From: Acidobacteriota bacterium
GTDB taxonomy: Bacteria > Acidobacteriota > Thermoanaerobaculia > UBA5066 > Gp7-AA6
Length of the DNA stretch: 64,000 bases
Direction of reading: 5' to 3'
NCBI GenBank assembly: GCA_020199905.1
Contig: JAIVJS010000012.1
Span: forward strand, 37,638-101,637
In this document: piece after piece, positions 3,325 through 61,442 of the stretch
Position numbering within the stretch: position 1 is the stretch's first letter
How the letters are laid out: each line of letters starts with the position of its first letter
Notes under the pieces: generated by a model
Seen by the model: the letters and a program-made list of their open reading frames with translations, nothing else
What the model was told of the DNA's origin: nothing
The model's database searches: none
Position numbers and translations under genes: made by a program

Positions 3325-3352
3325 CTGTCAGCTTTCAGCTCTCAGCTTTCAG
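3325..3352 (+). repeat. Heptamer array directly after a stop codon
   Basis: Four perfect-phase 7-base units, CTGTCAG, CTTTCAG, CTCTCAG and CTTTCAG, begin on the base after the TAG of the preceding gene. Together with 3428-3455 it forms an inverted pair. Confidence 0.9.
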
Positions 3353-3427
3353 CCTGAAAGGGAATGGTGCACCGTCGTCCGTCGAAACCGCCAGCGTTCC
3401 GACGACCGATGCCCGGAACCGGGACCC

Positions 3428-3455
3428 GCTGACAGCTGACCGCTGACAGCTGAGA
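3428..3455 (+). repeat. Heptamer array, inverted partner of 3325-3352
   Basis: Four units, GCTGACA, GCTGACC, GCTGACA and GCTGAGA, are complementary in sense to the array at 3325. The 75 bases between could form the loop of a hairpin. The array lies 46 bases upstream of the next start codon. Confidence 0.88.
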
Positions 3456-3501
3456 GCTTCCTTCGGAATCCCCTCCCTCCCGCCGGGGTTATCGTCTCGC
3501 C

Positions 3502-5995: not shown

Positions 5996-7161
5996 GCGCC
6001 GCGACCGGAATCCTCTTCGACCGGCGGTTCCAGTCCCACGCCGCGCCGTACGAGCACCCGGAAAGGCCGGCCCGGCTGGGGGCAATCGAGGCGCGCCTGG
6101 CGGCGGACGGACTCACGCCGCGGTGCCGGAGGGTCCCGGCGCGGGAGGCGACCAGGGAGGAGCTGCTCGCGGTCCATTCCGCGGGGCACATCGACGAGAT
6201 CGCGGCGACCGCGGACCGCACGTACACGTCCCTCGATCCCGACACGTACGCGTCCGCGGGCTCGGCCCTGGCGGCCAGGCTCGCAGCAGGCGGTCTCGTC
6301 GACCTGACGCTCGCCGTCGTGAGAGGCGAGCTCCGAAACGGCCTCGCCCTCATCCGGCCGCCGGGACACCATGCGGAGGAGGATCGCGCGATGGGCTTCT
6401 GCCTCTTCAACAGCGTGGCGGTCGCGGCAAGGGCCGCGCAAAACAAATTCGCCGCGAGAGCGGCGCAGGGCGACTTCGCCGCAGAGGCCGCGCAGAGCGG
6501 AATCATCGCGGGGGCCTCGCCGAGCGAAATCGTCGCCGGGGCCGCGCAAAGCGCCACCATCGCGAAGTCCGCGCCGGCCGCGAAGGCGCCGCGCGTCCTG
6601 ATCGTCGACTGGGACGTTCACCACGGCAATGGCACCCAGAACACGTTCTGGGAAGACGCCGGCGTTCTTTATTTCTCGACCCACCAGTGGCCGTTCTATC
6701 CGGGGACGGGAGCCATCGGAGAAACCGGCGGGGTCGGCGCCCGGGGGCGGACGGTCAACGTCGCGTGGCCGGCGGGCCGGGGCGACGCCGACCACCTGGC
6801 CGCGTTCGACGAGGTGCTTCTTCCGATCGCCCGCGAATTTCAGCCCGACTTCGTCCTGGTCTCGTGCGGATTCGACGCGGCCCGCGGCGACCTCCTCGGC
6901 CAGCAGCTCCTCTCGCCGGGCGGATACGCGGCGATGACCGAGCGGCTTCAGAGCCTGGCGGGCGGAAAAGTCGTCCTGGCCCTCGAGGGCGGATACGCGC
7001 TCGAGGTCATCGCCGCGTCCGCCGCCGCCTGCCTGGGAACCCTCCTCGGCGACGCCGCCCGCGAGCCGGAGCCGGGCGAACCGTCGGCCGCGGCCCGCGA
7101 CGTGATCGCGAAGGTCCGGGAAGCGCACACGCCCTATTGGGGAGCGCTTCAGAGACGATAG
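5992..7161 (+). CDS. Histone-deacetylase-family amidohydrolase with repeat insert
   Basis: A 389-residue member of the zinc-dependent HDAC/AcuC/acetylpolyamine amidohydrolase family, which removes acyl groups from amines or lysines. Visible signatures are the double histidine RPPGHHAE (about residues 122-130), GFCLFN, the zinc ligands in DWDVHHGNGTQ and GFDAARGD, and the tyrosine loop LEGGYAL. Between GFCLFNSVAVAA and VLIVDWDVHHG the protein carries about 50 extra residues made of five 9-residue repeats (AAQNKFAAR, AAQGDFAAE, AAQSGIIAG, ASPSEIVAG, AAQSATIAK), which the family normally lacks. All catalytic positions survive, so the enzyme may still be active. The ATG overlaps the previous stop. 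The stop codon falls inside a heptamer array. Confidence 0.93.
   Translation: MSAATGILFDRRFQSHAAPYEHPERPARLGAIEARLAADGLTPRCRRVPAREATREELLAVHSAGHIDEIAATADRTYTSLDPDTYASAGSALAARLAAGGLVDLTLAVVRGELRNGLALIRPPGHHAEEDRAMGFCLFNSVAVAARAAQNKFAARAAQGDFAAEAAQSGIIAGASPSEIVAGAAQSATIAKSAPAAKAPRVLIVDWDVHHGNGTQNTFWEDAGVLYFSTHQWPFYPGTGAIGETGGVGARGRTVNVAWPAGRGDADHLAAFDEVLLPIAREFQPDFVLVSCGFDAARGDLLGQQLLSPGGYAAMTERLQSLAGGKVVLALEGGYALEVIAASAAACLGTLLGDAAREPEPGEPSAAARDVIAKVREAHTPYWGALQRR
6442..6576 (+). repeat. 27-base coding repeat inside the HDAC-like gene
   Basis: Five in-frame 27-base units encode a degenerate nonapeptide (A-A-Q-x-x-x-x-A-x). The most similar units begin GCCGCGCA. Phase is kept at 9 codons throughout, so the reading frame is preserved. 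Confidence 0.82.
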
Positions 7162-7205
7162 GGGGTAGGCGGCAGGCGATAGGCGTGAAACGGGAAACGG
7201 GAAAC
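7157..7205 (+). repeat. Heptamer array spanning the HDAC-like stop codon
   Basis: Seven units in exact 7-base phase: GATAGGG, GGTAGGC, GGCAGGC, GATAGGC, GTGAAAC, GGGAAAC, GGGAAAC. The TAG stop (7159-7161) is part of unit 1. The unit sequence drifts from GGTAGGC type to GGGAAAC type within one array. Confidence 0.9.
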
Positions 7206-7287
7206 GAAAAAGGGCGGGGAGCGGGCGTTACCTCGCTACCGGGTCCGAATGACGATCAACGCTCAACCCTCCCTCGGGCCCGCAAAC

Positions 7288-10745: not shown

Positions 10746-10779
10746 CTCGAATCATTGTAACGCCCGGGAAGAAAGGTAA

Positions 10780-10800
10780 GAGTTGAGAGTTCAGCGCTGA
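10780..10800 (+). repeat. Heptamer array, left half of an inverted pair
   Basis: Units GAGTTGA, GAGTTCA and GCGCTGA, followed by a weaker GAGCAAA, lie upstream of the start at 10745. They can pair with 10830-10857 on the same strand to form a hairpin. Confidence 0.85.
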
Positions 10801-10829: not shown

Positions 10830-10857
10830 GAGTCTCAACTCTCGACTCTCGACTCTC
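10830..10857 (+). repeat. Heptamer array just past the UbiA stop codon
   Basis: Units GAGTCTC, AACTCTC, GACTCTC and GACTCTC. In the sense of the minus-strand UbiA gene this begins 6 bases after its TAG. Confidence 0.88.
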
Positions 10858-10863
10858 AACTTC

Positions 10864-13283: not shown

Positions 13284-14210
13284 TCAGGCCTCCGGCCGCG
13301 CGCGCGCCGCGAGGTACTCGGCGAGCGCGTCGCGCCAGGGTCGAATCGGCTTTCCCGTCTTCGCCTCGTACCGACCCGTATCGAGTACGGAGTAGGCCGG
13401 CCGGACCGCGGGCCTCGCGAGCGTCGCCGAGTCGATCGGCCGCACGGGGATCTCTGCGCGGCCGGCGAGGGCGACGATCGCCTCGGCGAACTCGAGCCAG
13501 CTCGCCTCGCCGCGGTTGGCGAAGTGGTACACGCCCGAACCGCGGGTGAGAATCAGCGCCACGATCGCCTCCGCGAGGTCCGGCGTTGCGGTGGGGCGCC
13601 CCCTCTGATCGTGGACGACCGAGAGCTGCGCGCGCCCCGACTCGACCTGCCGCAGGATCGCCTCGACGAAGTTCCAGCCCGAGCGGCCGAACAGCCACGA
13701 GCTGCGCACGACCAGCCCGTCCGGCGCTCGCAGCGCCGCTTCCTCGCCCTCGCGTTTGGTTCGGCCATACGCCGAAAGCGGAGCGGTTTCGTCCTGCTCC
13801 GTATAAGGAGAGCCTTTCGCGCCGTCGAAGACGAAGTCGGTCGAGACGTGGACGAGCTGGATCGATCGCGCGAGACACTCCTCCGCCAGAATTTCGACGG
13901 CCGCGGCATTGACCGCGTGCGCGCGCGGGTCGGTCTCGCAGTCGTCGACCTTCGTGTACGCGGCGCAATTGACGACGACGTCGGGAACGGCTTCCCGAAA
14001 GGCGCGCCCGACGGCGGCGCGGTCGGTGACGTCGAGATCTTCCCGCGCCCGTGGGACGACCTGGAACCCCGCCCCTGCGAGCGCCGGAACGACGTCGGAT
14101 CCCAGCATCCCCGCCGCCCCGGTCACGAGCGCCCGGCGGGGGATGGCCAGCCCGACGTGACCGCGCGGGAGCGATTCCGCCGGAGACGCAGGGCCGGAGG
14201 CGGTGCTCAC
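13284..14210 (-). CDS. rfbD: dTDP-4-dehydrorhamnose reductase
   Basis: A 308-residue extended short-chain dehydrogenase that reduces dTDP-4-keto-rhamnose to dTDP-L-rhamnose with NAD(P)H in the cytoplasm. The nucleotide-binding loop is RALVTGAAGMLGSDV (about residues 26-40). The catalytic triad region is VHVSTDFVFDG and the YGRTK (YxxxK) motif. VVNCAAYTKVDDCE is characteristic of RfbD rather than RfbB. The GTG start at 14210, 8 bases after the rfbB stop, adds about 25 residues to the usual N-terminus; translation could begin closer to the Rossmann strand. Last sugar gene of rfbA-rfbB-rfbD. Confidence 0.93.
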   Translation of the reverse strand: MSTASGPASPAESLPRGHVGLAIPRRALVTGAAGMLGSDVVPALAGAGFQVVPRAREDLDVTDRAAVGRAFREAVPDVVVNCAAYTKVDDCETDPRAHAVNAAAVEILAEECLARSIQLVHVSTDFVFDGAKGSPYTEQDETAPLSAYGRTKREGEEAALRAPDGLVVRSSWLFGRSGWNFVEAILRQVESGRAQLSVVHDQRGRPTATPDLAEAIVALILTRGSGVYHFANRGEASWLEFAEAIVALAGRAEIPVRPIDSATLARPAVRPAYSVLDTGRYEAKTGKPIRPWRDALAEYLAARARPEA

Positions 14211-14218
14211 AGGAGCCG

Positions 14219-15271
14219 CTAGCGGCGTCCGGCGGGCTCTTTCGCCGTCGCCGAGGAGGTGGCGAGCCGGTCTCCGTACTGCGTGCGGTAGTACTCCCGA
14301 TACGCGGCGTCCTTCTCCTTGACGGGCCGCCACCAGTCCTCGCGGTTCCGGTACCACGCGACCGTTTCGGAGAGGCCGCTCTGAAAGGCCGTGCGGCTCG
14401 CGAAGCCGAGCCGCGCGAGCTTCGACGCGTCGAGGGAATAACGGCGGTCGTGCCCGGGGCGGTCGTTGACGAAGCGGATCAGGCTCTCCGGCTTCTTCAG
14501 CTCGCGCAGGACCTGGCGGGTGATCTCGATGTTTTCCGCCTCGTTTCCTCCCGCGATGTTGTAGACCTCCCCCGGCTCACCGGCGTCCAGAAGGAAGTCG
14601 ATCGCGGCCGCGTGATCCCGGACGTAGAGCCAGTCGCGAACGTTCCGCCCGTCTCCGTAAAGCGGCAGCGGCTGGTCGTCAATCGCGTTGGTGACGAAAA
14701 GCGGAATCAGCTTCTCCGGATACTGGTACGGGCCGTAATTGTTGGACGCCCGCGTGATCACGACGGGGACTCCGTACGAGGCCCAGTAGGAATACGCCAG
14801 CCGGTCGCCGCCCGCCTTCGAGGCGGAGTAGGGATTCCTCGGGTTCAGCGGGGATTCCTCCGTGAAGGAGCCCTCCGCGATCGTCCCGTACACCTCGTCC
14901 GTCGAGATCTGGATGAACCGCCGGACGCCGCGCTTTCGGGCTTCCTCGAGCAGGACGAAGACTCCTCGAACGTCCGTCTCGATGAAGGACGCGTCCCCCA
15001 GGAGCGAGCGGTCCACGTGCGTCTCGGCGGCGAAGTTCACGACGTCCGTGCACCCCTCCATCGCGGTCCGGACGGCCTCCGGATCGGTGATGTCGCCGTG
15101 AATGAACTGATAGTTGGGCCGCTGGTCGACGTCCGCGAGATTCGCGGGGTTGGCGGCATACGTCAGCTTGTCGAGATTGACGACGCGCACGCCATCGCCG
15201 CGCGACTCGAGGATCTGGCGGATGAAGTTCGATCCGATGAATCCGGATCCGCCCGTCACGAGGAGTTTCAT
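14219..15271 (-). CDS. rfbB: dTDP-glucose 4,6-dehydratase
   Basis: A 350-residue SDR enzyme that converts dTDP-glucose to dTDP-4-keto-6-deoxyglucose using bound NAD+. It starts MKLLVTGGSGFIGSNF (GxxGxxG). The active-site region is QISTDEVYG (Thr-Asp-Glu, dehydratase-specific) and YSASKAGGD (YxxxK). RASNNYGPYQYPEKLIP and RDWLYVRDH are family landmarks. Length is normal. The ATG overlaps the rfbA stop (ATGA, 15268-15271). The C-terminus has about 20 extra low-complexity residues. Confidence 0.96.
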   Translation of the reverse strand: MKLLVTGGSGFIGSNFIRQILESRGDGVRVVNLDKLTYAANPANLADVDQRPNYQFIHGDITDPEAVRTAMEGCTDVVNFAAETHVDRSLLGDASFIETDVRGVFVLLEEARKRGVRRFIQISTDEVYGTIAEGSFTEESPLNPRNPYSASKAGGDRLAYSYWASYGVPVVITRASNNYGPYQYPEKLIPLFVTNAIDDQPLPLYGDGRNVRDWLYVRDHAAAIDFLLDAGEPGEVYNIAGGNEAENIEITRQVLRELKKPESLIRFVNDRPGHDRRYSLDASKLARLGFASRTAFQSGLSETVAWYRNREDWWRPVKEKDAAYREYYRTQYGDRLATSSATAKEPAGRR

Positions 15272-16332
15272 ACGATTCCGATCTCGGAGTTGTCTCCGAT
15301 CAGGAAACGGTGCACGCGGGGGCGCTCAGCGCCCGGATGAATCCGCACGTTTGTGCCGATGAGCGAGTCGGCGATGCGCCCGGGGATGCTGACGACCTGC
15401 GAGCCGCGGAGGATGATCGAGTTTTCGATCTCGCACCGGTCGATCAGGCAGTCCGGCCCGATCGCCGTGTAGGGGCCGACGAACGCGTCGCGGATCTCGG
15501 ATCCCGCCCCGATGATCGCGGGGCCGCGGACGATGCTGCGCACGAGCTTCGCCCCCTCTTCCACCACGACCTTGCCCTCGACACGGCAGCCCGAGTCGAC
15601 GGCGGCGAGGCCGTTTGGCGAAAAGGTGTCGAGAATGATCCGGTTGGCCTCGAGCATGTCCTCGATCTTGCCCGTGTCCTTCCACCATCCGGACACGAGG
15701 TGCGGATGGACCGTCTTCCCGTGGTCGATGAGCCACTGGATGGCGTCCGTGATCTCGAGCTCGTCGCGCGCGCTCGGGCGGATCGCCTTGACCGCCTCCC
15801 AGATGGTGTCGTCGAACATGTAGACGCCGACGAGCGCGAGGTCCGACCGGGGATTCTTCGGCTTCTCGGTCAGCCGGAAGACGCGATCGCCGTCGAGCTC
15901 CGCCACCCCGAACTGCTCCGGGTTCGGCACCTTCGCGAGCAGGATCTGAGAGTTGCAGCCGATGCGCCGGTACTCGTCGACGAGGCTCGAGATCCCGTCG
16001 GCGATCAGGTTGTCTCCGAGATACATGACGAACGGAGAGCCCCGCAAAAATCCCTCGGAGATGAGGACCGCGTGGGCGAGACCGCGCGGAGCGTCCTGTT
16101 CGATGTAGGTGATCTTCGCGCCGAACCGGGCGCCGTCGCCGAGCGCCGCCTGGATTTCCTCCCGGGTGTCTCCCACGACCACGCCGATCTCGCGGATGCC
16201 CGCGGCGACGATGGCCTCCACCCCATAGAAGAGGACCGGCTTGTTCGCGACCGGGACGAGCTGCTTCGCCCGCGTGTACGTCAGCGGGCGCAGACGGGTG
16301 CCCCTGCCGCCCGAGAGGATCAGACCTTTCAT
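15268..16332 (-). CDS. rfbA: Glucose-1-phosphate thymidylyltransferase, long form
   Basis: A 354-residue nucleotidyltransferase that makes dTDP-glucose from dTTP and glucose-1-phosphate, first step of the dTDP-sugar pathway. The N-terminal 235 residues hold the nucleotide-binding signature LSGGRGTRLRPLTYTRAKQL and PVANKPVLFYGVE. The C-terminal 110 residues are a left-handed beta-helix (hexapeptide) domain (GCRVEGKVVVEEGAKL, GPYTAIGPDCLIDRC). This is the long RmlA/StrD-like form (about 355 residues), not the 290-residue short RmlA. No rfbC (3,5-epimerase) is seen among the neighbours. An 88-base gap separates it from lptD upstream. Confidence 0.93.
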   Translation of the reverse strand: MKGLILSGGRGTRLRPLTYTRAKQLVPVANKPVLFYGVEAIVAAGIREIGVVVGDTREEIQAALGDGARFGAKITYIEQDAPRGLAHAVLISEGFLRGSPFVMYLGDNLIADGISSLVDEYRRIGCNSQILLAKVPNPEQFGVAELDGDRVFRLTEKPKNPRSDLALVGVYMFDDTIWEAVKAIRPSARDELEITDAIQWLIDHGKTVHPHLVSGWWKDTGKIEDMLEANRIILDTFSPNGLAAVDSGCRVEGKVVVEEGAKLVRSIVRGPAIIGAGSEIRDAFVGPYTAIGPDCLIDRCEIENSIILRGSQVVSIPGRIADSLIGTNVRIHPGAERPRVHRFLIGDNSEIGIV

Positions 16333-16420
16333 TCGCGAGGGATCATAACCGGGCGGGAGGCGGGAGGCGGCGGCGGCGCCGAAAACGAGTGTCCCTGACC
16401 GTGCGGCGCCCGGCGCCTTC

Positions 16421-18763
16421 TTACTGCCCGAATATCCGATCGACGCTCTGATGCAGATCGAGCAGCGTTCCGATGTCCTTGAGGTTCACCACGAACCGGA
16501 TGTCTCGGCGCGTGTTGGGCGGTAGCCGCAGCTGGCGCAGCTCCACGAAAACGGTGTAGCAGGCGGCGCGGAAGGCGACGAGGGTGCGGTCCTCGAGCAG
16601 GAGGTTCTGGCGGGCGTCGTAGTTCAACTGCGTATCCACCCGGAACTGTTTCGAGAGCTCGATGCCCGCGGCCACCCGGAACTGGTCCGAGTTCGGCGAG
16701 GGAGAGCCGGCGGGCAGGGGCGCGGCCAGGATCGGGCGGCTCGCAAACCACGTCGCGTTGACGAAGCTCGTCTTGTGGTTGTACGCCGCCGAAATCGAGG
16801 TGCCGGTGACCTGGGAAGCCTTGCCGTCGTAGGAGAGCCGCCCGTCGAGGTGGAACGCGGGCCCGGGGGCGACGCGGAGCGTGGCCTCGACGGGGCCCGT
16901 CTTCGTGACGAGAGGATTGGCGAACGTGGTCGCGCTCGGGAGCAGGCTCTGCGGCAGCGTGAAGGCGCGCGTCTGCGCGACCTCGAACGAGGCGATCTCC
17001 TCGGCGGCCGGGGCCTTCGGGTCGGCGGCACGGGCGAGCAGCCGGTTCACCAGCGCGTAGCGGACCTGGTTCTGTCCGAGCTGCAGGTCCACTTCGTCGA
17101 ACGAAGGGATCCGTTCCGGGTCGCCGACCTCCGAAACGTACGTGTAGTCGATCCGCGGCTCGATCACGTGCTTGAACTTGCCGAACCGCCCGATCGACGC
17201 GTCGAAGATCCGGGAAAACGAGGGACCGACGATCGAGAGGCCCGCTTCCCCGTACTCGCGTGTCAGGGACCTCCCGACGAAGCGGGTCTGGGTGGCGGAG
17301 TCGGTCGAGTCCGTGTACTCGGTGAAGCGGCCGCCCGCGCGGGCCGTGATCGACAGCCAGGGAATCCTCTTCCACGGGAGCGACAGCGTCGGATGGAGGT
17401 CGAATCGCCCGTAGTCTCCGCGGGGAAGCCCGGGTCCGCGGTTCAGGTAGAGCCAGGACGCCGAGGACTCGAGCGCGAAGAACAGCGGCGTTTGCCCGAC
17501 GCGCGACGTCCGCCGGAAGAATTCCGCGCTCGGCAAACGCTCCGAGATCACCGTCGTTCCGAAGAACGTTTCCGCCCGCTCGAACCGGATGTTGAGCGAG
17601 TCGTCCCCGAAATTCTTCGTGAGAAACGCGCGCGAGAGGATCTGCCGCGCCGAGTTCAACGCGAACGAGCGCTCGAGGTCCTGGAGGTATTGCTCGTCGG
17701 AATAATCGCGCAACGCGAGCACCCCCCGGAAACCGCCGGGAAGATCGTCGGACACGTGATCCAGCCGGTACTTCCAGCGGTTCTTCGTCTTTCGCGTGAA
17801 AACGCCGGTCGTCCCGTCCGGCAGCGTGCAGAAGTTCGTTTCGCCCGGCGCCTGGTCGAGCGGGACGCACGCCGTCGCGTCCGTGTCGTGAATGGCATAT
17901 CCCTGAAAAAGCCCGGCGGATTCCGCGGTCGGGGTCCAGCGGAACTCCTCGCCCAGGCCGACGGAGCCCTTCGAGTAGAGGTCCAGGTTCGAGGTGAGAT
18001 CGGTCGAGCGCCCCGTGACCCAGTAATGCGTCAGGCCGAGGTAGGCGCCCCGCGAGCTGTACCCCGCGCCGGGAACGAGCAGCCCGGACGCGCGATCCTC
18101 CTTCGTGGGCCAGACGAGGTAGGGCGTCCAGAGCAGGGGCACGGAGCCGGCGCGGAACGAGACGTTCTTCATGCGGGCATAGTCGTCGAGCGTGACGATC
18201 GCCTCGGAGAGCCGGAAGGACCAGGATGGCTTCGGAACGTCGCACGCCGTGAAGAGCCCGTCGTGGATCCGGTAGGTCGCCTCCCCGATCTTCTCGATCG
18301 ACTTCGCAATCACGTGGTACGCGGGCGAGAGATCGGCCGTGGCGTCCTCCATGCGTCCGGTTTTCGCTTCGAGCTGGAAGGTGCCGCGGCTGCCGGAAAG
18401 CCGGGTCGGCCCCTGGTCGATCACGACGTGGCCCTCGAGGGTGGCGGTCTTCGTCGGGAAGTCGTACCGCGCGGCGTCCGCGGTGATCTTCACGTCCTGG
18501 TACTCGATGACGACCTCGTCCGATCCCTCCCACGACACGTCCTTCTCGTAGTGCACGGGCTTCTTCGTGTAGAGCCGGACCTCTCCGCCCCTGGTCGGAG
18601 GGCGGAATCGCAGTTGAAAGTTGGGCCGGACCTTGAACCGGCCCTCGAAGGGATCCGACGAGCCGAAGGGGTCCTGCGCGACAAGCGCGCGGGAACAGAG
18701 GACGGAAGCGAGGAGAATCGCCGCGGAGACGGCTGTCCGCAGGTGATCCGGCGATGGCCTCAC
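16421..18763 (-). CDS. lptD: LPS-assembly protein LptD
   Basis: A 780-residue outer-membrane protein that inserts lipopolysaccharide into the outer leaflet. The N-terminus (residues 1-30) has a signal peptide ([20 protein letters not shown]). Residues about 70-190 form the OstA/LptA-like jellyroll ([32 protein letters not shown]). The rest is the LptD barrel, with the typical [37 protein letters not shown] region, often ending strands in aromatic residues. A GTG start at 18763 overlaps the CoA-transferase stop (GTGA) by 4 bases. I discard an upstream in-frame extension since it would run antisense-like through the CoA-transferase gene. Its presence supports a diderm with LPS. Confidence 0.9.
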
Positions 18764-19419: not shown

Positions 19420-19429
19420 GGGAGTTAAG

Positions 19430-41359: not shown

Positions 41360-41363
41360 GGAC

Positions 41364-46464: not shown

Positions 46465-46494
46465 GAGGTTGAGAGTTGAGTTGAGAGTTGAGAG
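46461..46494 (+). repeat. Heptamer array containing the tldE stop codon
   Basis: TTGAGAG, an extra G, TTGAGAG, a 5-base TTGAG, then TTGAGAG twice. The tldE TGA is inside unit 1. Confidence 0.9.
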
Positions 46495-46521
46495 TTAAGC
46501 GAAAAATCTTCCCGTCTGGAC

Positions 46522-46549
46522 GCTCAACGCTTAACTCTCGACGCTCAAC
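46522..46549 (+). repeat. Heptamer array containing the TPR-gene stop codon
   Basis: Units GCTCAAC, GCTTAAC, TCTCGAC and GCTCAAC. The minus-strand TGA (46545-46547) is in the last unit. The two convergent genes thus each end inside their own array. Confidence 0.9.
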
Positions 46550-49872: not shown

Positions 49873-49893
49873 GACAACTGATAGCTGACAGCT
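49873..49893 (+). repeat. Heptamer array beside the response-regulator stop
   Basis: Units GACAACT, GATAGCT and GACAGCT, ending one base from the minus-strand TAG at 49895-49897. Confidence 0.85.
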
Positions 49894-51320: not shown

Positions 51321-52250
51321 CTACTGGGGCGGTTTCGGCTGGTTCTCCGGGCTCGCGGCGCCGGGGATGTATCCGGTCTTGCCGTCGGCGGGAGCAACGG
51401 AAGGCGCGGAGGGCGCGGGGGCCGCGTAGAGCGATCCCTGGCCGTAAGGCGTCGGCGCGGGCGCCGGCGGCTTCGCGGCGGCGGAACCGGCGGCGGTGGA
51501 ACCGGGAGAGGCGGCCGAGGCGGCTGCGGTGGTGCCGGCCGGCGCTCCGGCCGCCGGAGGAGGCGCTGGAGGAGGCGGGGGCGTCTGCCACATCGGCGAG
51601 AAGCGGACCTGATTGACCGTTCGGTCGCCGATCGGAAGAGTCGCCGCAAAGGTGACGGAGCGGCCTCCCTCGATCGTCCCCGTCGCCAGCGTCGCGTTGC
51701 CCGTGGACACAGCGTTGCCGGCCTCGTCGATCGCGGACACGGTCAGATGCGTGTTGGTGACGGGCGTGGTCCCCGGGTTGCGAAGGGAGCCCGTCACCAG
51801 GAGGTTCGTGCCCGATTTCTGCTGCGTGTAGTCGCCGATCTCGACCCGGCCGGCGCCCGCGCGGGTCTCGACGCCCTTTTCCTTCTCGCCGGGGGCGGGC
51901 GCCGCCTCCGCATGGCCGACGTCCGCGTCCGTCACGCGAACGCGCGCCTTCTCCTGCTTTCCCGTCCGGACGGCGTCGGCCGGAGTGGAGGGCGGCAGCG
52001 CCACGGCAGGCCTTACCGCCACGGGACCGCTGGCGCGCGCGGCGCTGGTGGCCTTCCAGTCGATCTCCGTCAGGGGAACGGACAGGAGGGTTCCGTCCGC
52101 CCGGGTGAGAAGGGCGTTGTTCCCCTGTTGAACGAGCGGCGTCTTCAGCTCGATGCGGGTGCCACCCCGAAGAACGACGACGTCGGCCGCCGCCGCGGCC
52201 GCCGCGGCGGCCGCGGCGGCGAGAAGAGCGGCCAGGATCGCTTTCCTCAT
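51321..52250 (-). CDS. Exported Ala/Pro-rich protein with FxLYD-like beta domain
   Basis: A 309-residue protein. Its signal peptide is an almost pure alanine run (residues 8-22, encoded by GCC/GCG codons). Residues 23-60 ([41 protein letters not shown]) form a small beta unit typical of proteins that handle short SLA1-like repeats. Residues about 135-225 ([41 protein letters not shown]) look like an FxLYD/Ig-like domain. The tail is Pro/Ala-rich. The ATG overlaps the PilY1 stop (ATGA), making it the last gene of the minor-pilin operon. Its role is not known. Confidence 0.75.
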
Positions 52251-55200
52251 TGTTCCTTCCAGTTCTGGTTGATCGTCCGGATCGTCCCGCGCGTGACGTC
52301 CTGCTTCAGGCATCCGCCCGAGCACAGGATCATGTCGATTGTATCGCCATCCGGCGTGGTCGACTGTGTCCCGGACGCGAGACCCGAGCCCTCGCTCTCC
52401 CGGTAGTCGCTGAAGTTTCCCGTCGGCGACCCCACGTTGTATCCGCCAGTCCCGTCCAGGAAGAAGAACCGGTAGCGGAATGAGCTGCCCTCCGTCGCAC
52501 ACGGGTTGTTCGAATCCGGCGTGAAGGTGATGAGCGTCAGATATCCCTGGGTCGAGTAGACAGTCGAAGTCGTTTTTTCGTTCTGAGTCGCAAAATCGAG
52601 GAAGAGGCCGCTGTACGTCCCGTTGAAGATCGGGCCCGGCCCGACTCCGACCGGAGTCACGCCCCCCGTGGGAGTGATGTTGCGCAGGTTGGCCTCGTGC
52701 AGCGTCGTCGTGCCGCCGTTGTCGATGACGAAGAAGAAGCGGTTGACCGAGGGGTTGGGGACCCGGAGGAGGTTCGCGCGATCGCCGGTGCCGAAGGCGA
52801 CTCCGAGGGTCGGGCGCGCGCCGCCGGCCAGATAAATGATCGAGGGCTCCAGGAAAACCGGCTGGTTCGTCTGGGTCGGCGAAACCGTTTGAGTCGACGC
52901 GTCGTACAGCATGAAGGGCGTCCACCCGCCGATCATCCCGGCCACGAGCTCGCCCGGCTTGGGGCTCGCCACGGACGTCAAGTCGGCGGCCAGATCGAGC
53001 CGCCACATCCGGCCGTTCTCGTCGCCGAAGTACACGACGTCCAGGTACCCGTCGTCGTCGTAATCGGCCACGGCCGGCGTCGCGGGCGACGGCGCCATCT
53101 CGACGAGCGGGCCGATGGCGCTGTCTTTGCCCTTGCTCGCCTTGTAGATCACTTTTCCGGTCTCGACGTCCACGACGTAAATCGCCCGCCCCTTGACCGT
53201 GCTCGCGGCGGCGATCGGATCCCCGGCGTTGAAAAGTGGGTCGAACCCGCCGCCGAAGATCGCGACGTAGCGGTCTTCATAAGCCGCGCCATTGATCACC
53301 TTGATGCGGCCCATGATCGGCTTCGACCATGTCTGGCCGATGGCCGGGACTCCCAGACAGGTCCCCGGACTCAGCACGCAGTCATCGGTCGTCTCCCAGA
53401 GGATGCTCGGGTACTTCGTCGCGCAGGACCCCCCGCCGTCCAGGCAGTCCGGGGAGCTTTCCGGCAGACTGGCGTTCTTCACGCCGGTGGTCGTGTCGAC
53501 GCGGTCGGGCTGCGTGACGTCGAGGCCGTAGACGTAGCGGCCGCCCTGCCGGAGCGTGCCGGCGAGAACGGTCCTCCAGATCCGGTTGCCGGCGTTCGGC
53601 GTTCCGTTGTGGCTCGGATCCATGAAGACGTCCGCGAAGGAGACGCTGCCGTCCACGAAATAGAAGGGCCGGGGCGGGAACCGGAGGAGTTGCGGCTCGC
53701 TCCGCATGACGGGCTTCGGTCCGTACGCAAAGATCTCCTGGCCCGTTCCGAGGTCAAACGAGTTCACGAAAGCCGGATCGCGTGGAGTGGCCCCGGCGCT
53801 GTCGGACCAGACTCCGGAGTCAAACGCGTGCAGGAATCCGTCGTTCGAGCCGACGAACGAAACGCGGCGCCTCTTGGAATGCAGGTTGGCGAACGCGCTG
53901 TAGGACTGGCCCGCGCGAGGCGTCAGGTTCGCCGAAAGGTACTGGAAGTACTTGGGAGGATCGAGGACCACGGGCTCGGAGTGGAAGATGTCGCCGAGCT
54001 TGTGCCCGTACCCGACCGGCGCGGTGGCGTCCGTCCGGACCTGGGGCGCCCCCGGGAGCGGCTGGTCGTCCTGGTACACGTAGGAGAAGCGCTGCTGCTG
54101 TCCGGCGCCCGGACCGATGACGGGTCCCGGCGGTTTGATGCCCGCCAGGTTCAGGATCTCGTCGCGGTTTCCCGCGGCGGTCAGCCCTCCTCGCAGGAAG
54201 CTCACCGTGCGCTGAGCAAGCGTCCGGTCCGTACCCGACGCCGGGTTCAACCCCATGTTGGTCATGAGCGTGTCGAAACATCCGCCGCCGCACGCGGTGT
54301 TGTGAAACTCGGACCGGGTGAGGGGGACCGTCGCGCCGGTCGTGCTCGCCCACACCATCTTGCGGCCCGGCCAGACCCGGACGTTCGGGGCGTTGGTGGC
54401 CGAGGCGGCCGAGGACGCCGCTCCTCCCGTCAGGACGGCCGTGGGATCGGTGTACCCGAGAGACCGACCCGCGTTCCAGACCGGCTTGCGCGTGGTCTGC
54501 GACGGGTCGTCGGGAAGCGTCTCGTCCGGATAGCTCAAGACGGGAGTTCCGCCGGTCACGACGGGGATCTTGCCGTTCAGGTCCAGGCGGAACGCCTTCA
54601 GCGATCCGTTCCAGATGGACCACTGGGAGGCCGACCCGTCGATGTTTCCGTGACTCGGGATGACCGCGCCGAGCTGAGCGGTGTCGGCGAGCCCGCCGGC
54701 AAACGCCGGCAAGGCCGGAGCGGCGATGAAGTTCGCCGTCCGCTTGAACTCGAGGATGCTCTGGAGCGCCGTCACGAGGCTGGCGCGGTCGCTCGCGGCG
54801 AAGACCTGCCCGCCGCTGTTGTCCGCGATGCACCTCAACCGGGGGTCGCTCGGGTTGGTGTTCATGGCGACGACGAACACCGGGACGCCCGTCACCCGGA
54901 TGCTCGGGTCGGCCGCGCGGGCGAGGGCCCGGGCGCCGGCCGGGTTCTCCGGCAGAGTCACGACGCCGAGGTCTTTGGAGGGGCCGAGCCCCGTCGGGCC
55001 GCCCACGCACGGGTTCGAGTAGCATTCGTCGAGCCCGTCCGTCACGAGCACCACGATGTAGTTGCGGCAATTGATCGCCGGATCGTCGGTCTGCGGAAAG
55101 ACGCTGTTGACGAAGTAGTTGTAGGCGTCCTTCAAGGCTCCCGCGAGCGGCGTGCCGGGGGCGGTGACGACCACGTTGCGGGCGTCTTCTTCCAGCGTGT

Positions 55201-57931
55201 ACTCCTGCATGTGCGTCTGCGACGAGTCGTAGCTCACGATCGACGTCGTGAATCGCAGCAGGCGCTTGATCGCCGACGTGCTGTCGGCATCGCTGGCCTT
55301 GAACGGGTTCCAGTCGCGCGGGAACGGAATGACCGGCCAGCTCGCCTGGCTCGGGGGGTCGCCGAAACCGCCCGGATAGGGGTCGTACAAGGGGTTCGTC
55401 GGCTTGGCGCTGTTGTAGAGCGCGATGCCGCCGCAGTCGGTCGAGTAGACGTCGCACGGGATGGCGAGGGGCGGGAAGGGACAGGACACTTCCGCCATGG
55501 CGTCGTTCGGGAACTGCTGGTCCCGCTGCGGGCCATCGGTATTCGGACCGGCGGCATAGGCGCCCTGGTTGTGGCGATCCGCGATCGGCGAGATGTCGTC
55601 CACCGAGTCGGCGTCTCCGTCGGTCGGAGACGAGCCCCACCGGGGATTGCCGAACAGGACGTCGTCGACCGTCGTGTTGTAGACCGGGGGCAGGTCATAC
55701 AGGTCCCCCCGGATGTAGCGGACGTACGTGGTGCGGGTCAGGACCAGGCCGGCGGCCGGGTCGGCCTGGGGATCGTCGAAGCCGCGGTACTGCAGGGGCA
55801 GAGGATCGCCGTCCGGCAACCCATCCCCGTCCTGGTCCACGAAAGAGCAGGTCTTCGTCGCGTCGTACAGGCACGGGCCGCACAGGAGGGGCGCCGCGGG
55901 CGGGCTGGCGAAGAGTGCCTGCGGAACGCCGGGGCAGGGAACTCCGGGCGGGGCGGCCTGCGGCGGAGGCGCCATGGCGAGAAGACCGCGGAGGGCGCTC
56001 GTAACCCAGTTTCCGACCGCCGGCATCGCGCTCGCCACGGGCATCTGGCCGAAGGGCAGCGGGGCGGGCGTCGGCGTGATGGTCCGCGTGGTCGTCGGGG
56101 TGCCGGTCGGCGTCCGGGTCCGGGTCGCGGTCGGCGTGAACGTCGGCGTGGACGTCGGGGTCGAGGTCGGGGGGAGCGGCGTCTGCGTGAACGTCGGCGT
56201 GGATGTCGAGGTCGCCGTGGCCGTGGGCGTCCGGGTCGGCGTGTTGGTCACGGTGAACGTCGGCGTGTTCGTCGAAGTCTGAGTCGGCGTCGAGGTCGGA
56301 GTGACCGTCGGCGTCTGAGTGAACGTCGCCGTCGCCGTCGCGGTGGGCGTCACCGTGAACGTCGGGGTGATGGTCGGGGTCGCCGTGTTGGTCGCCGTCG
56401 GCGTGTTCGTGGGCGTCTGCGTATTCGTCGGCGTCCGCGTGAACGTCGGCGTGATGGTCGGCGTGGCGGTTCTCGTTGCGGTGGGGGTCGGAGTAGACGT
56501 CCGCGTGTTCGTGAAGGTCGGCGTGATCGTCGGCGTCTGAGTGCCCGTCGGGGTGCTGGTGTAAGTCGCGGTGCGCGTGAACGTCGGCGTGATCGTCGGC
56601 GTGTTGGTCTTCGTGAACGTCGGCGTGATCGTCGGCGTGTTGGTGGCTGTCGGGGTGTTCGTGAAGGTCGCCGTGTTCGTCGGCGTGCTCGTCTTCGTAA
56701 AGGTCTGCGTGATGGTCGGCGTGTTCGTCGCGGTAAAGGTCTGAGTCGCCGTCGGCGTGTTGGTGAAAGTCGGCGTGATCGTCCGAGTGTTCGTCGGCGT
56801 CCGCGTGCTCGTCGGCGTCCGCGTGCTCGTCGCGGTGAACGTCTGCGTGGCGGTCGGCGTCTGGGTCGCGGTCGGGGTCGATGTCGCCGTCCTGGTCTGA
56901 GTCGGCGTATTCGTCCGCGTCGGCGTGTTGGTCGAGGTGAAAGTGGGCGTCGACGTCGGCGTGGACGTGCTCGTGGGGGTCGCCGTCGCCGTCGGAGTCG
57001 CCGTGTTGGTCGGCGTGTTCGTCGGCGTGAACGTCGGCGTGTCCGTCGGTGTCGCCGTGGGGGTCGGCGCCGGCGCGTACTCGTCGATCTGGACGATCAG
57101 GCTCGTGTCGCTGTAGTTCCCGGACACGACGTGCATCCGCAGCTCGGATCCGGGTCGGGCGGGGCTCCGGTAGATGACCGTGCCCTGGTTCAGGCCCTTC
57201 GGACCAAAGGCGCCGCGGAACTTCCCGGGGGAAGGCTCGCCGGCCGACGGGAGCCCGACCGCCGTGTCGTAGGGCAGCCGCGTGTCGAAGTTCTCGTTGG
57301 TCGTGTACTTCGCGTAGGGATGCATCACCTTGTGCCCGAACTGCAGGAACCGGCCCTGGGAGATGTCCGGGTAGTTCCACACGCCGGCCGGGTTGAAGAC
57401 GTTGTCGACCGTGTCGATGGTCGTCCCGCCGGCGTCGGTCACGGCGTCGGCGAAGTAAAGCCACTCGACGCCGCCGTTCTCGAGTTTGTCGTTCTTGTTG
57501 TGCGCGCCGCCGACCGCCTGCCCGACGGGGCCGGTCTGCGCGGCGCCGAACGTCTGATTGGGGTTGCGGTAATACGCGAAGGCCCAGTTCACGTTCAGAG
57601 TGGTCGAGAGCACCTGGCGGAGCACGCTCTTGGCCACGCCGATCTTGGAGCCATTGGTCCCGAGCGCGGTGCCCTGCGGATACAGGAAGTCGTCCATGTA
57701 CGCGGGCAGCTCGAACGTGTCGGTGAACTCCCGGTTCATCGAGCCGGAGGAGTCGAGGATGACGAGCACGTCCGTCGCGGAGCCCGAGTTGGCCTGGAGA
57801 AGCTGCCGGTCGTCCGGGAGCGCCGGAGACGCGGTCACGAAGAGCAGCAGCATCGCCACGCCGACCCGGTGGCGCCGCGCCAGCGCCGACAGGCGCACCA
57901 GGGAGAAGAGCCGCCGTTCCGGATGGCTCAT
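52247..57931 (-). CDS. pilY1: PilY1-type pilus-tip adhesin with Thr-Pro repeat insert
   Basis: An 1894-residue exported protein. After a signal peptide ([17 protein letters not shown]) comes a von Willebrand A start with the MIDAS motif [12 protein letters not shown] (about residue 55). From about residue 287 to 622 the chain is a TPT-type Thr/Pro repeat (TPTFTPT, TATPTIT). The remaining vWA elements appear only after it ([13 protein letters not shown], about residue 964). The C-terminal 700 residues are the PilY1 beta-propeller ([23 protein letters not shown], with the calcium loop [15 protein letters not shown]). It should sit at the pilus tip and control retraction or adhesion. First ATG overlaps the PilX-like stop. 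PilY1 proteins are usually 1000-1400 residues; this one is longer because of the insert. Confidence 0.88.
56066..57070 (-). repeat. Coding Thr-Pro minisatellite in pilY1
   Basis: About 1 kb of imperfect 6-codon units (ACGCCGACV-type, encoding TPTxTx) read on the minus strand. Substitutions are mainly at third positions and in the variable residue. The frame is open throughout, and the opposite strand is also fully open (GVGVxVxV). Confidence 0.93.
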
Positions 57932-58524: not shown

Positions 58525-59927
58525 CCCGGAAACGCGTAGTTACGAAGGTTGATCTTCAGAGTCTGGACGCGCCGCCGGAAGTGCGGCTCGCCCGGCAGCG
58601 TCGGATACGCCGCCGCGGTCAACGGAGTGCCGGGCGAATTCATGGTGCGGAAACCGAGGGCGGACGGCGAAATGAATCGCGGGTCCGGGTCCTTGGACTT
58701 GGCGACCAGCGAGATCATCACGCCGTGGAGGCGCGGGCAATGCGCCACGAGAATTCCGGCGTGCGCGAACGCGGGCGGAGTCCCGGGCGGGATCGGCGGC
58801 CGGATGAAGGCCGTGGGGACGAGGTTGGCCTCGCCCGGGATGTTGGGCGACCACTCGTCGCCGTTGGCCTGCGTCGAGACGTTCCGGTCGGTGTCCGTGA
58901 CGGCCACGTTGGCGACCGTGCGGCGAACCGCATCGTCGTCGTTGGCGTCGACTCCGTACGCGATCTGCATGTCCTCGACGTCGTCCGCCAGCCTCTCGAC
59001 TTCGAACCGCGCTCCGCGGCGGATTCCCTGCGCGAGCGCCGGGTGGGCCGGGTCCGAGTTGTCGATGAAGAAGATCAGATCGTCCAGGATCCCGACGCGC
59101 CGCACCGCGGTATTGATCGGCGTCGGACCGACGGCGGCTTCGGCCGGCGTCTCCGTGCCGAACTCCTCCGCCGTGGCGTCGGTAAAGTTGACGTTCCCGA
59201 AAGAGTTCAACGCGGCGAGCGTCGTCGGGGCGGTGATCACCCCGACGTTGTAGGTGGGCTGGGGGTATCGCTGCGGTCCGAAGGGAACGGAGCAGCCCTC
59301 GTGGATGTCGTCGCTTCCGCTCACGAAGACGTAGCGCGGGCTGCCCGCGGCCGCGCCGAGAGTGTACGCGTCGATGGCCGCGAACTGAGGGCGCTGCGCG
59401 ACGTCGTTGTTGACGTGGGTGCCGATCAGCGGATCGCCGGTGATGGCCTTGGCCTTCAGCACGTTCACCGCGTTGCAGGTGCCGCACCCGGACGCCGCCT
59501 TGTCCAGATCGAATCCGATGAGCGGGGAGTTGATGACGCCGCGGACCTCGATCATGTCCGTCCCGTCGCGCACGGGAAGGTTGTTTCCGTTGACATCCGT
59601 GACCGTCGCGCCGATCACGTTGTCGAACCCCCGTCCGGCGGTGCCCTCGTTGACGCCTCCCATCTGCGGATCCGCCGCGTTCAACACGGCCTGCGTCACG
59701 AAGAGACCGCCCGAGCCGGCCATGCGGACGGCGCGGGTCATCTGGTAGATCCCGTAGCGAACGGCGCCCTGCGCGTCCGCCACTTCCTGCTCCCCCTTGT
59801 TGATCCGGGCGCTGGCATCGAACACGGCGAGGATCCCGAGCATGGCGATCGCCAGCAGGAAGACCACGATGATCATCTCGATCAGCGTGAATCCGCGCTC
59901 GTTCCCGTCGAAGCGGCGAGAGGTCAT
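58521..59927 (-). CDS. PilW-type minor pilin
   Basis: A 468-residue type IV pilin-like protein. It carries a type III (prepilin) signal: RRFDGNERGFTLIEMIIVVFLLAIAMLGILAVF, cut by PilD between Gly and Phe. The conserved Glu is five residues after the cut. The next segment (QGAVRYGIYQMTRAVRMAGSGG) matches PilW. It is longer than most PilW proteins (about 350), with extra loops, including CGTC (about residues 183-186). ATG 59927 overlaps the pilV-like stop. Confidence 0.87.
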   Translation of the reverse strand: MTSRRFDGNERGFTLIEMIIVVFLLAIAMLGILAVFDASARINKGEQEVADAQGAVRYGIYQMTRAVRMAGSGGLFVTQAVLNAADPQMGGVNEGTAGRGFDNVIGATVTDVNGNNLPVRDGTDMIEVRGVINSPLIGFDLDKAASGCGTCNAVNVLKAKAITGDPLIGTHVNNDVAQRPQFAAIDAYTLGAAAGSPRYVFVSGSDDIHEGCSVPFGPQRYPQPTYNVGVITAPTTLAALNSFGNVNFTDATAEEFGTETPAEAAVGPTPINTAVRRVGILDDLIFFIDNSDPAHPALAQGIRRGARFEVERLADDVEDMQIAYGVDANDDDAVRRTVANVAVTDTDRNVSTQANGDEWSPNIPGEANLVPTAFIRPPIPPGTPPAFAHAGILVAHCPRLHGVMISLVAKSKDPDPRFISPSALGFRTMNSPGTPLTAAAYPTLPGEPHFRRRVQTLKINLRNYAFPG

Positions 59928-60526
59928 GGGCAGGGCGCCGCCGCGCCGACGGCGCACGTGTCCGCGACCGACGCAAAAGCGGCGGCCGTGGGCGCCGGGC
60001 TCGCCAGGAATCCGCTGACTCGCGCGCTCCTGGCCCCGATGCCCATGGGGCCGGTCCCGGCCGTCACGGTGACGTCGACGCGTTTGTACTGATAGGGCTG
60101 CCCGGCGACCGTGATCCGCGTCGGGGTAAACGCCGCGCCATTGGGGACTGTGGCGACGTCCGCGGCCGGCACCTGGTACTGGATGACCTGGTAGGTGATC
60201 CGGAACGGGTTGGCGACGCCGCCGGAGGCGGGCGGAAGGCCGGTGACCGGATCCGGCAGCTTCGGGGGCAGGTCGTTGACCTTGACTCCCGGAGTGAGCT
60301 GCGGATCCAGGAACGGCAGGTTCATCAGCTGCTCCAGCCGGTCGCGCGCGATCACGTTGATGCTGGTGTACTCGCTCGCCGAATAGTTCGACTTGACACT
60401 CGCGACGAACAGCGGCGCGATGCCGAGCAGGATGAAGCCCAGAATCGCGATCGCGATGATCATCTCGACCAGGGTCAGGCCGGCCTCGGCATTCGCCTTC
60501 CGCATCGCGAAGTTCATCCGGATCAC
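59924..60526 (-). CDS. PilV/GspI-type minor pilin
   Basis: A 200-residue prepilin-like protein. The signal is KANAEAGLTLVEMIIAIAILGFILLGIAPLFV, with the cut after Gly and Glu at +5. ASEYTSINVIARDRLEQLMNLPF is a helix typical of PilV/GspI. The C-terminal part is beta-rich with Pro-rich loops. I chose the GTG at 60526, overlapping the GspH-like stop (GTGA) as all its neighbours do; an ATG at 60517 would shorten it by three residues. Confidence 0.83.
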   Translation of the reverse strand: MIRMNFAMRKANAEAGLTLVEMIIAIAILGFILLGIAPLFVASVKSNYSASEYTSINVIARDRLEQLMNLPFLDPQLTPGVKVNDLPPKLPDPVTGLPPASGGVANPFRITYQVIQYQVPAADVATVPNGAAFTPTRITVAGQPYQYKRVDVTVTAGTGPMGIGARSARVSGFLASPAPTAAAFASVADTCAVGAAAPCP

Positions 60527-61071
60527 TGCCACACCGCGGGCGTCACGACCTCGACGCGCCCGGTCGGGGACGTGCGGATCGTGATCTGGTTTCGGTCGCC
60601 GGCGCCCGTCGGGCCTTCGACGACGATGTCCGCCGCCGCCGCGCCGGCGGGAGCGATCCGCCGGCCGTTTCCGTCGAATGTGATCTTGTTGGAGGCCGGG
60701 AGCGTCAGGAAAACGAGCGACCCCGAAGAGATCGCGTGCTGCGCTGACGGCTGCGGGGTCGGAGTCGGAGCGGGCGTGTCGGCTTCGATCGTCTGCAAGA
60801 CGTGGCTCGGCGCCGACGCGGACGCCGGGACGACGAGGACGCTCGCCGGAAGGTTCCGCCGGACGGCGCGCATCCGCGCGGCGAGCAGGCTCGTCTGGAT
60901 TTCGCGCGCCGCGCTCCGGAACTGGCTGCGGCGGAGCGTGCGGCTGAGGGCGGGGATGGCCACGGCGGCCACGATGCCGACGATCGCCAGGACGACGACG
61001 AGCTCGACCGCGGTGAAACCGCGCGCGGGAGAACCGTCTCCTTCCCATGGATCTGCCTGTCTGCGGAGCAT
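60523..61071 (-). CDS. GspH/FimT-type pseudopilin
   Basis: A 182-residue prepilin. The signal is GSPARGFTAVELVVVLAIVGIVAAVAIPAL, with the cut Gly-Phe and the +5 Glu. SQFRSAAREIQTSLLAARMRAVRRN is the conserved helix of GspH/FimT. A Thr/Pro-rich linker (TPAPTPTPQPSAQ) lies in the middle, similar in style to the pilY1 insert. ATG 61071 is the first gene of the pilin operon, which runs on the minus strand to 51321. Confidence 0.85.
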   Translation of the reverse strand: MLRRQADPWEGDGSPARGFTAVELVVVLAIVGIVAAVAIPALSRTLRRSQFRSAAREIQTSLLAARMRAVRRNLPASVLVVPASASAPSHVLQTIEADTPAPTPTPQPSAQHAISSGSLVFLTLPASNKITFDGNGRRIAPAGAAAADIVVEGPTGAGDRNQITIRTSPTGRVEVVTPAVWQ

Positions 61072-61442
61072 TCGTGCGATTTATGAGCGATTCCCGTGCC
61101 CGGGCCGCTGGCGAGAGACAAGGGCATTGGTAACAGTGAGTTGCGAGTTGAGAGCGGACGGGGAACACCTCGGAACCGACCATAAAACGTCACTTTCGGT
61201 AGCGGCCGGACGAAGAGATTGGGCGCTCGAAAAGGTGGGACGCCGGGCGGTGTCGGCGCGGGGCGTCACAGAGGCGGCCGCCGGAGACAGGCTCATCTCT
61301 GCGCCTCACCGTCCTTCGTCCTTCCTCCCCCGGGGGCCGGGCGGTCGTGCACGCCCATCGGCTTTTCCCCGTCCGGCGCCCGGCTTCCTTCCTCCGGCGC
61401 TCGGGCGCCCTCCCCCGGACCGGTTACACTTTCGAAACCTCC
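61072..61442. promoter_or_regulatory. 371-base divergent intergenic region of the pilus locus
   Basis: It lies between the pilin operon (minus) and pilT-like gene (plus), so it should hold both promoters. I looked for a sigma-54 site (TGGC-N8-TTGC type) for the nearby NtrC-type regulator and saw none that was convincing. A short heptamer-phase stretch (GTGAGTT, GCGAGTT, GAGAGCG) is at 61136-61156. No gene is seen. Confidence 0.55.

Follow-up and report, generated by a model that had tools for sequence, protein, structure and literature searches.

What are the seven-base tandem repeats that stand in the gaps between genes in a 64,000-nucleotide stretch of an Acidobacteriota genome (contig JAIVJS010000012.1, positions 37,638 to 101,637; hereafter the window), and what puts them there? 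Reports of heptamer repeats go back decades and come from scattered bacteria, with no agreed function. An earlier note on the letters of the window described its arrays as a degenerate family, genome-wide in appearance and confined to intergenic DNA. This description was examined in 853,425 bases of the same genome, consisting of the window and further stretches of an assembly of 3.92 Mb in 115 contigs that is 92.5% complete. The sample holds 746 genes, called with a home-made gene caller that leaves gene starts uncertain, and 96,193 intergenic bases. Arrays were obtained both with Tandem Repeats Finder (TRF) and with a separate period scan, and were called at a score of at least 11 for comparisons between periods and at a looser score of 9 for counts of family, length and orientation.

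At the stricter score, period 7 yielded 125 intergenic arrays, compared with 0.3 on average (at most 2) in 20 dinucleotide-preserving shuffles, and a chance origin was rejected. Periods 4-6 and 8-13 gave only 0-5 intergenic arrays each, a sharp excess of period 7 over 6, 8 and 9 that bears out the notion of a genome-wide, strictly seven-base family; periods 14 (35 arrays) and 21 (14 arrays) are both multiples of 7. Confinement to gaps is nearly but not fully observed, as 24 period-7 arrays lie in coding DNA, which is 7.9 times as long as the intergenic DNA. The arrays are indeed lower in GC than their surroundings (59.4%, versus 66.0% in the remaining intergenic DNA and 67.6% in coding DNA). 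At the looser score, 169 intergenic arrays are spread over 132 regions, regions of at least 60 bp totaling 404; four whole units are the commonest length (54/169), and 87 arrays have two or three. Arrays of the unit AGCTGAN also occur in independent assemblies, including the one-record chromosome CP128386.1 (L099, L126), so the phenomenon is not an artefact of one assembly; that explanation was rejected on the strength of arrays in other assemblies and isolates and of orthologous arrays in several assemblies. These results confirm that the seven-base repeats of this genome are real.

Four unit families cover 158 of the 169 arrays: ARCTGAN (55), GGGAAWC (42), MGTYGAG (35) and AGGCGGN (26), where membership is a fit at 6 or more of the 7 positions and the families were picked after the units had been seen. 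The units are related by rotation and strand choice, as first proposed, although the single consensus offered for them, R-N-N-R-R-N-M, is too loose because they fall into four families. In two of these, six bases of the unit are often fixed and the remaining one is free. Minority letters within ARCTGAN arrays amount to 28% at N versus 3-11% at other positions (chi-square p = 2e-21), the free base being A in 54, C in 71, G in 62 and T in 25 cases, and within AGGCGGN arrays to 34% at N versus 2-4% elsewhere (p = 2e-24). Variation in MGTYGAG sits at Y and the following G (17-18%), and GGGAAWC varies little within arrays, yet has A or T at W. A small test of neighboring free bases gave p = 0.03 in 1 of 11 comparisons within this genome's own arrays (AGGCGGN, lag 2) and p = 0.012 at lag 1 on the loci of named genomes; many long arrays outside this genome are uniform at the free base. 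Strings of 18-28 bases shared between arrays showed no excess over column content in the four families tested, indicating that the arrays were not copied from one another.

The arrays are concentrated at the ends of genes. Their density is 2.6 per kb in convergent gaps, 1.9 in tandem gaps and 0.7 in divergent gaps, and 63 of 170 array-to-stop distances are 8 nt or less, compared with a null mean of 30 and a maximum of 45 in 200 draws. No excess was found at start codons (12/136 close, null 19). Of 23 ARCTGAN arrays that are flush with a stop codon, 15 place the CAG of the unit on the stop, a single phase of the seven possible, and flush MGTYGAG arrays show one phase in 6/10; no preferred phase was seen for AGGCGGN (n = 7) or GGGAAWC (n = 7). 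TAG is the stop codon of 20 of the 30 genes that have a flush ARCTGAN or AGGCGGN array, versus 120 of 417 other gene ends (p = 5e-5), while an excess of TGA at MGTYGAG arrays was not significant (7/10, p = 0.52).

A common orientation was also apparent. With one sign fitted per family (four signs for 158 arrays), and with the 11 arrays outside the families and 5 outside placed regions left out of the counts, 129 of 153 arrays point from a gene edge into the gap. In the stop half of tandem gaps the coding strand reads NTCAGYT, GGGAAWC, AGGCGGN or MGTYGAG in 45/56 cases, and in the start half the reverse complement is read in 38/40; GGGAAWC taken by itself follows the rule in 11/14 and 9/11, respectively. 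The rule holds for 32/37 arrays in convergent gaps and, with a poorer fit, for 14/20 in divergent ones. A minor tendency of arrays to start with AGCT at their outer end varies with the way in which the units are divided. The order TCAGYT...ARCTGA outnumbers the reverse within 150 bases by 13:0 in this genome, by 14:1 in four genomes of the genus g66 (with orthologous loci included, so that these are not 15 independent cases) and by 22:2 in loci of named genomes among the matches listed. Around fourfold AGCTGAN repeats elsewhere, hexamers on the opposite strand and at most 300 bases away fall on the expected side in 85 instances and on the other side in 10, for 97 usable loci in named genomes among the matches listed (at least 109); two or more such hexamers are nearby at 25 of the 97, versus 8 control windows.

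Many arrays stand face to face. An inverted partner is present in 42 of 117 regions, compared with 7% of mismatched controls, whereas direct partners occur in 11% versus 8%. Inverted neighbors belong to the same family in 13 of 23 cases, where 27% is expected from family sizes, and in genome G050 unit identity averages 5.6 of 7 positions in 12 neighbor pairs versus 4.0 for other pairs. At many G050 loci (L053, L203, L204, L205) the heptamer arms enclose an inner stem resembling CCCACCC...GGGTGGG, with which they may form a larger palindromic element. Two heptamer-armed regions of genome G360 (L197 and L199) share, by eye, a common inner sequence, like a small composite element.

How the arrays change with time was followed at two gene pairs in g66, of which 41 genomes were searched, yielding 30 loci each for secA|rapZ and gcvT|gcvH, a few of them incomplete. 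At both, arrays are present in some species and absent in others, and the two sites can differ in array presence (G157 at secA|rapZ, G120 at gcvT|gcvH); the number of units also differs between species. A conserved position with changed unit content, which had been predicted for relatives, was seen among species of another genus. At secA|rapZ, arrays flush with the gene end accompany a TAG stop in G189, G157 and G231, and the arrays of G181, G196 and G271 start later, with the stop staying TGA. Array-free species have mostly TGA, the exceptions being G293 and G413 (TAG) and G407 (TAA). Two unrelated terminator types alternate among close species in this region (L209-L238), as if noncoding regions had been swapped whole.

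The gcvT|gcvH array lies apparently inside an operon, has no partner arm and is present in 10 of the 27 species with a readable region. Nine non-redundant species share one phase relative to the stop, and over positions 2-27 the mean pairwise difference among them is 0.71 at the free base, close to the random value of 0.75, compared with 0.11, 0.00, 0.40, 0.11, 0.20 and 0.37 at the successive positions of the core TCAGCT. When the comparison was restricted to three whole units, leaving out G217, which has lost its first unit, the free base again gave 0.71 and the core 0.00, 0.00, 0.42, 0.00, 0.08 and 0.31, the changes being only A/G and T/C swaps at the variable positions. Judged from these alignments, this is the pattern of purifying selection on a putative recognition core, TCRGCY. 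Across 137 syntenic gaps of G189 and G271, arrays were found in both species in 4, in G189 only in 4 and in G271 only in 2, at least three of these 10 regions (113, 155 and 271) being weak or doubtful. In one gap an entire inverted module lying between stop and start is cleanly present in one genome and absent from the other, a difference of 86 bp (109 vs. 23 bp, G189 vs. G271) that may be a gain or a loss.

The distribution of the arrays is patchy but very wide. Two genomes of the same family as the window's, G001 and G002, showed no period-7 array in 43 and 24 kb, respectively, and contained 5 and 2 GTYGAGM pairs, compared with 176 in this genome; the reversed control pattern scored 58 here, likely because it resembles another unit of this genome. 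Threefold ARCTGAN was matched in 69 of 396 genomes of the phylum, patchily within g66 (G189, G360, G231 and G157 being array-rich, their sister species G140, G109 and G085 array-free), with 105 matches in this genome versus 3 for the reversed pattern, which scored equal or higher in a few genomes (G166, G336). Fourfold AGCTGAN, in a scan run without a reversed control, was found in at least 109 stretches of public genomes, against about 0.002 expected by chance (24 fixed bases, even base use). Among the matches listed, which come mostly from binned genomes, are Acidobacteria, Planctomycetota, Chloroflexi, cyanobacteria, Balneolaceae, Chitinophagaceae, Gammaproteobacteria, Actinomycetota, Gemmatimonadetes, Omnitrophota, Myxococcota, Armatimonadota, Bacillota, Gottesmanbacteria, Woesebacteria and others. 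Named strains among them include Moorena bouillonii, Vibrio, Halomonas, Pseudoalteromonas, Okeania hirsuta, Geothrix oryzisoli (cultured isolate SG189, locus L179) and a Chitinophagaceae chromosome.

The free base, the common orientation rule, the ARCTGAN register and the mostly kept core suggest one shared process. A mostly kept core, a scrambled seventh base and a strict seven-base step are most simply read as a row of protein sites, and neither copying nor base-pairing explains the core, because the arrays share no long strings and facing arms are not complementary at their free bases. A precedent exists in Omega, the ribbon-helix-helix ParB protein of plasmid pSM19035, each dimer of which binds one 7-bp repeat, with four contiguous repeats needed for full activity, according to the available part of that account (PMC9499535). 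We tentatively prefer, well short of conviction, the explanation that the arrays are tandem binding sites of a putative oligomeric DNA-binding protein. Such a protein would assemble along the array with one subunit pair per 7 bp, reading the six-base core and skipping the seventh base, and the step itself might be set by the geometry of the helix, since three units make 21 bp, or about two turns. Orientation and crowding at gene edges suggest that the protein row would be a boundary mark between transcription units, where the assembly might insulate or end transcription.

Several observations weigh against binding sites as the explanation. To our knowledge no binding protein has been described for these arrays, and no protein search for one was run here. 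One genome carries four unit families, and G050 has 18 exact unit classes among 32 arrays, so that binding would call for several proteins or a loose code. The 87 arrays with only two or three whole units fall below the requirement of Omega, which moreover accepts repeats in mixed orientation, as far as the accessible part of that paper goes (PMC9499535), while the arrays here follow an orientation rule. Neither the stop register of ARCTGAN (15/23) nor the TAG excess is predicted by binding sites. The between-species comparison of core and free base comes from one site, gcvT|gcvH, at which two core positions vary, and many long arrays elsewhere have an invariant free base, as plain slippage would yield. 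In G231, the six-unit, uniform array at secA|rapZ apparently stands in place of the left half of a terminator stem, and some arrays look invasive, in a way that suits the building of repeats from gene edges.

That last idea is the closest competitor, and we rate the two almost equally, with binding slightly ahead. Arrays would be built in place by a strand-directed activity that extends 3' ends at gene edges into the gap, a putative enzyme adding, by telomerase-like logic, seven bases per cycle, six of them templated and one unfaithful. Although on balance we think this somewhat improbable, it does predict the observed orientation at either side of a gap (129/153, with the order counts of 13:0, 14:1 and 22:2), independent free bases, the absence of copying between loci and the sharing of units between neighboring inverted arms (13/23 in the same family; 5.6 vs. 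4.0 in G050). It also predicts the ARCTGAN stop register, as though arrays were primed by the gene end, and bacteria are known to make tandem repeats by such means in the DRT10 system (PMC12632851, from the portion available). Against it, no reverse transcriptase (PF00078) was matched in the window's genome, 92.5% complete as assembled, in a search whose control was positive in 3 of 14 genomes. The core is mostly kept over long times at a fixed place, which would require repeated rebuilding, and AGGCGGN and GGGAAWC arrays have no preferred phase to the stop. In its boldest form, in which arrays in many phyla are the footprints of a machine that caps gene edges at seven bases per cycle, six templated and one random, the proposal strikes us as doubtful. 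Equally doubtful is its corollary that the stop codon primes the reaction and gaps end up bracketed by inward-pointing arrays.

Neutral slippage with a seven-base step, set for example by the footprint of a polymerase, could also build arrays in tolerant DNA, and coding DNA would then be cleared of them because 7 is not a multiple of 3. Heptamers have been found over-represented among the repeats of many bacteria and a polymerase footprint has been proposed, as recounted in the available portions of two reports (PMC4692102, PMC4679880). The gap repeats of period 14 and 21, the uniform long arrays, among them the six uniform units of G231, and the differences in unit number between species all suggest slippage. 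It does not, however, predict a single free position, the scrambling of the free base next to a core that is mostly fixed, one AGCTGAN unit across many phyla or a fixed orientation, and we regard it as an unlikely source of the arrays as a whole.

The inverted arms could instead pair in RNA as 3'-end hairpins or extended terminators. Inverted partners far exceed the controls (42/117 regions vs. 7%), and at secA|rapZ in G189 and G271 the arms bracket, by eye, an apparent intrinsic terminator. The free bases of facing arms are, however, not complementary: they match in 8 of about 16, 9 of about 21 and 19 of about 49 cases, where nulls of 7.0, 8.9 and 18.3 apply. A single array is present in 94 of 122 array-bearing regions, and the gcvT|gcvH array stands in an apparent operon without a partner. 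Terminator-like sites, identified with a strict, home-made finder (GC hairpin plus T run), are not enriched at array gene ends (7/124, versus 18/262 array-free and 4/386 shuffled). RNA pairing is a very unlikely function of the arrays.

Least probable is the spread of short mobile palindromes of the repetitive extragenic palindromic (REP) or bacterial interspersed mosaic element (BIME) type by a tyrosine transposase, a reading that has in its favor the frequent placement of REPs at gene ends, where they supply a TAG stop (in the portion of PMC3733652 available), the 86-bp module and the one Y1 transposase gene in the genome, but that is largely refuted by the lack of strings common to arrays beyond column content and by unit numbers, free bases and centers that differ between the loci compared. 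That transposase-like gene (G000:C112:4813-5133), the only one found, has a long C-terminal extension, and no period-7 array was present in its 3.3 kb locus (L309). Two further candidates were rejected: quadruplexes as a general cause, as ARCTGAN units contain no GGG tract, and the supply of stop codons in all frames, as the NTCAGYT read by ARCTGAN arrays that face a stop contains no stop codon. An attC-like site, whose core GTTRRRY is matched by GTTGAGC but not by the other families, was dropped.

Within the window, the earlier note had listed 21 array starts. When period-7 runs near each start were compared with shuffled 80-bp windows, 15 had a run at p < 0.01, five (10780, 19469, 23018, 46522 and 49873) reached p = 0.02, and 11884 was not significant (p = 0.30). 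For 7157 and 46461 the best run begins 30 and 17 bases further on (7187-7206 and 46478-46496), the listed starts themselves being more degenerate TRF arrays.

Inverted pairs recur along the window. An AGCTNTC array on the minus strand (3323-3353), flush with the stop of a gene ending at 3324 and with a free base that varies from unit to unit, forms the 5' arm to a plus-strand GCTGACA array of the ARCTGAN family (3428-3458), both detected by TRF, period scan and shuffle test. The same three methods support each of the following four arrays: TCTCAAC (MGTYGAG family; minus, 10833-10861), which has as a weak 5' arm a short plus-strand GTTGAGA run (10779-10791, p = 0.02); AGTTNTC (ARCTGAN family; minus, 19428-19458), with a short inverted ACTGANA partner (plus, 19470-19485, p = 0.02); a seven-unit MGTYGAG array (plus, 20207-20259), whose inverted AACGCTC partner (minus, 20305-20321) was seen by TRF and period scan; and GGGAAAC (plus, 41362-41392), which is matched about 355 bases off by an inverted GTTTCCC array (minus, 41747-41776) with the same threefold support. 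The plus-strand GTTGAGA array at 46478-46496 (period scan, shuffle test and TRF, the last as a degenerate array with indels from 46461) is partnered by a short inverted ACGCTCA run (minus, 46520-46535, p = 0.02).

The remaining arrays stand without an assigned partner. TRF, period scan and shuffle test agree on GGGAAAC (plus, 7187-7206), AACTGAA (plus, 24698-24721), AACGCTC (minus, 30790-30815), just beyond the stop of the minus-strand gene 30815-31849, CCGCCTN of the AGGCGGN family (minus, 39330-39355), overlapping the stop of the minus-strand gene 39348-39878, and a seven-unit array of CGTTTCG, CCGCTCG and CCGTTCG (24564-24614, no strand assigned) that lies outside the four families. A degenerate GGYAGGC/CGATAGG array (plus, 7156-7185; 73% matches in TRF) overlaps the end of a gene ending at 7161 and is not the best run there. 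A GTTGAGC/GTCGAGC run (plus, 22940-22956) was supported by the shuffle test and by TRF, which extends it to 22971 by allowing an indel, and a GCTCAAC run (minus, 43490-43506) by p = 0.004. Short runs of AACTGAG (23018-23030) and CTGATAG/CTGACAG (49878-49893), both on the plus strand, reached p = 0.02.

Other repeats and genes were noted on the way. A dispersed, GC-rich 58-base repeat occurs in about three tandem copies at 21511-21677 of the window and has 36 matches in the 853 kb; of these, 15 lie no more than 30 bp from a period-7 array, which is mostly of GGGAAWC type. A long stretch of 6-, 12-, 18- and 36-base repeats (56094-57075) lies within a minus-strand gene (52247-57931, 1894 aa), and rmlD, rmlB and rmlA, for dTDP-rhamnose, stand beside an LptD-like gene at 13284-18763 (NCBIfam matches).

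How do the arrays compare with known systems? The only parallel first considered, the short tandemly repeated repetitive sequences (STRRs) of cyanobacteria, which are 7-base tandem units, is too narrow: heptamers have been published for Xanthomonas, Nostoc, Beggiatoaceae, cyanobacteria and Bacteroidetes, and AGCTGAN itself occurs in many phyla. The G-rich heptamers GGGAATC of Xanthomonas and GGGGA(C/T)T of Nostoc, reported in a paper that also mentions heptamers of Calothrix, resemble the present arrays in being mostly intergenic 7-base repeats, usually of four units, with frequent inverted pairs, a position near stops and some variable positions (PMC4692102, as far as its available text goes). 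The consensus class of GGGAATC (AATCGGG) is among the commonest units here, with 16 of 169 arrays; the GGGAAAC class, with 20, is not GGGANTN, and most of the 169 have other units. In contrast to those G-rich heptamers, other families here follow the same rule, including ARCTGAN without a GGG tract, and the available part of that account has neither a scrambled free base beside a kept core nor a stop register (PMC4692102). The TAACTGA direct repeats of Beggiatoaceae, cyanobacteria and Bacteroidetes (MacGregor 2015) are AACTGA plus one base, and thus an ARCTGAN member; they are intergenic and mostly read toward the start codon, like the start-side arrays here (PMC4679880, same limit). Their seventh base is nearly always T, with single-base variants rarely repeated (PMC4679880, portion available), whereas here it is free, and the present arrays crowd at stops rather than starts. 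The published Xanthomonas, Nostoc and Beggiatoa accounts fit the same orientation rule.

More distant systems share single features. Omega parS consists, like the arrays, of contiguous, non-palindromic 7-bp repeats with variable outer bases; it differs in being a plasmid centromere with its own protein, mixed orientation and nothing specific to gene edges (PMC9499535, as available). DRT10 and telomerase make a short unit from a template with re-alignment, as the repeat-adding proposal would require, but DRT10 produces cDNA for phage defence, with a 9-base unit in one system (PMC12632851, likewise in part), and the reverse transcriptase search was negative here. REP/BIME elements are extragenic, palindromic and often supply a TAG stop, yet they are conserved palindromes of 20-40 bp with GTAG or CGTC at one end (PMC3733652, in the text available), and the arrays share no long strings. 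In the literature covered, which took in few subscription journals, we found no account of these arrays in this organism and no free-base or orientation rule across different units. Explanations of heptamers have so far been separate, invoking quadruplexes, translational regulators or polymerase slippage, and the features described here rule out quadruplexes as a general explanation. They also open the question to experiment, as sister species of g66 differ in their arrays at one and the same pair of genes and the AGCTGAN unit is present in named isolates. The earlier note had none of the free base, the orientation rule, the inverted pairing or the stop-codon register. Heptamer repeats were already known; what is new in comparison is the free base, one orientation rule for four units, and the stop register.

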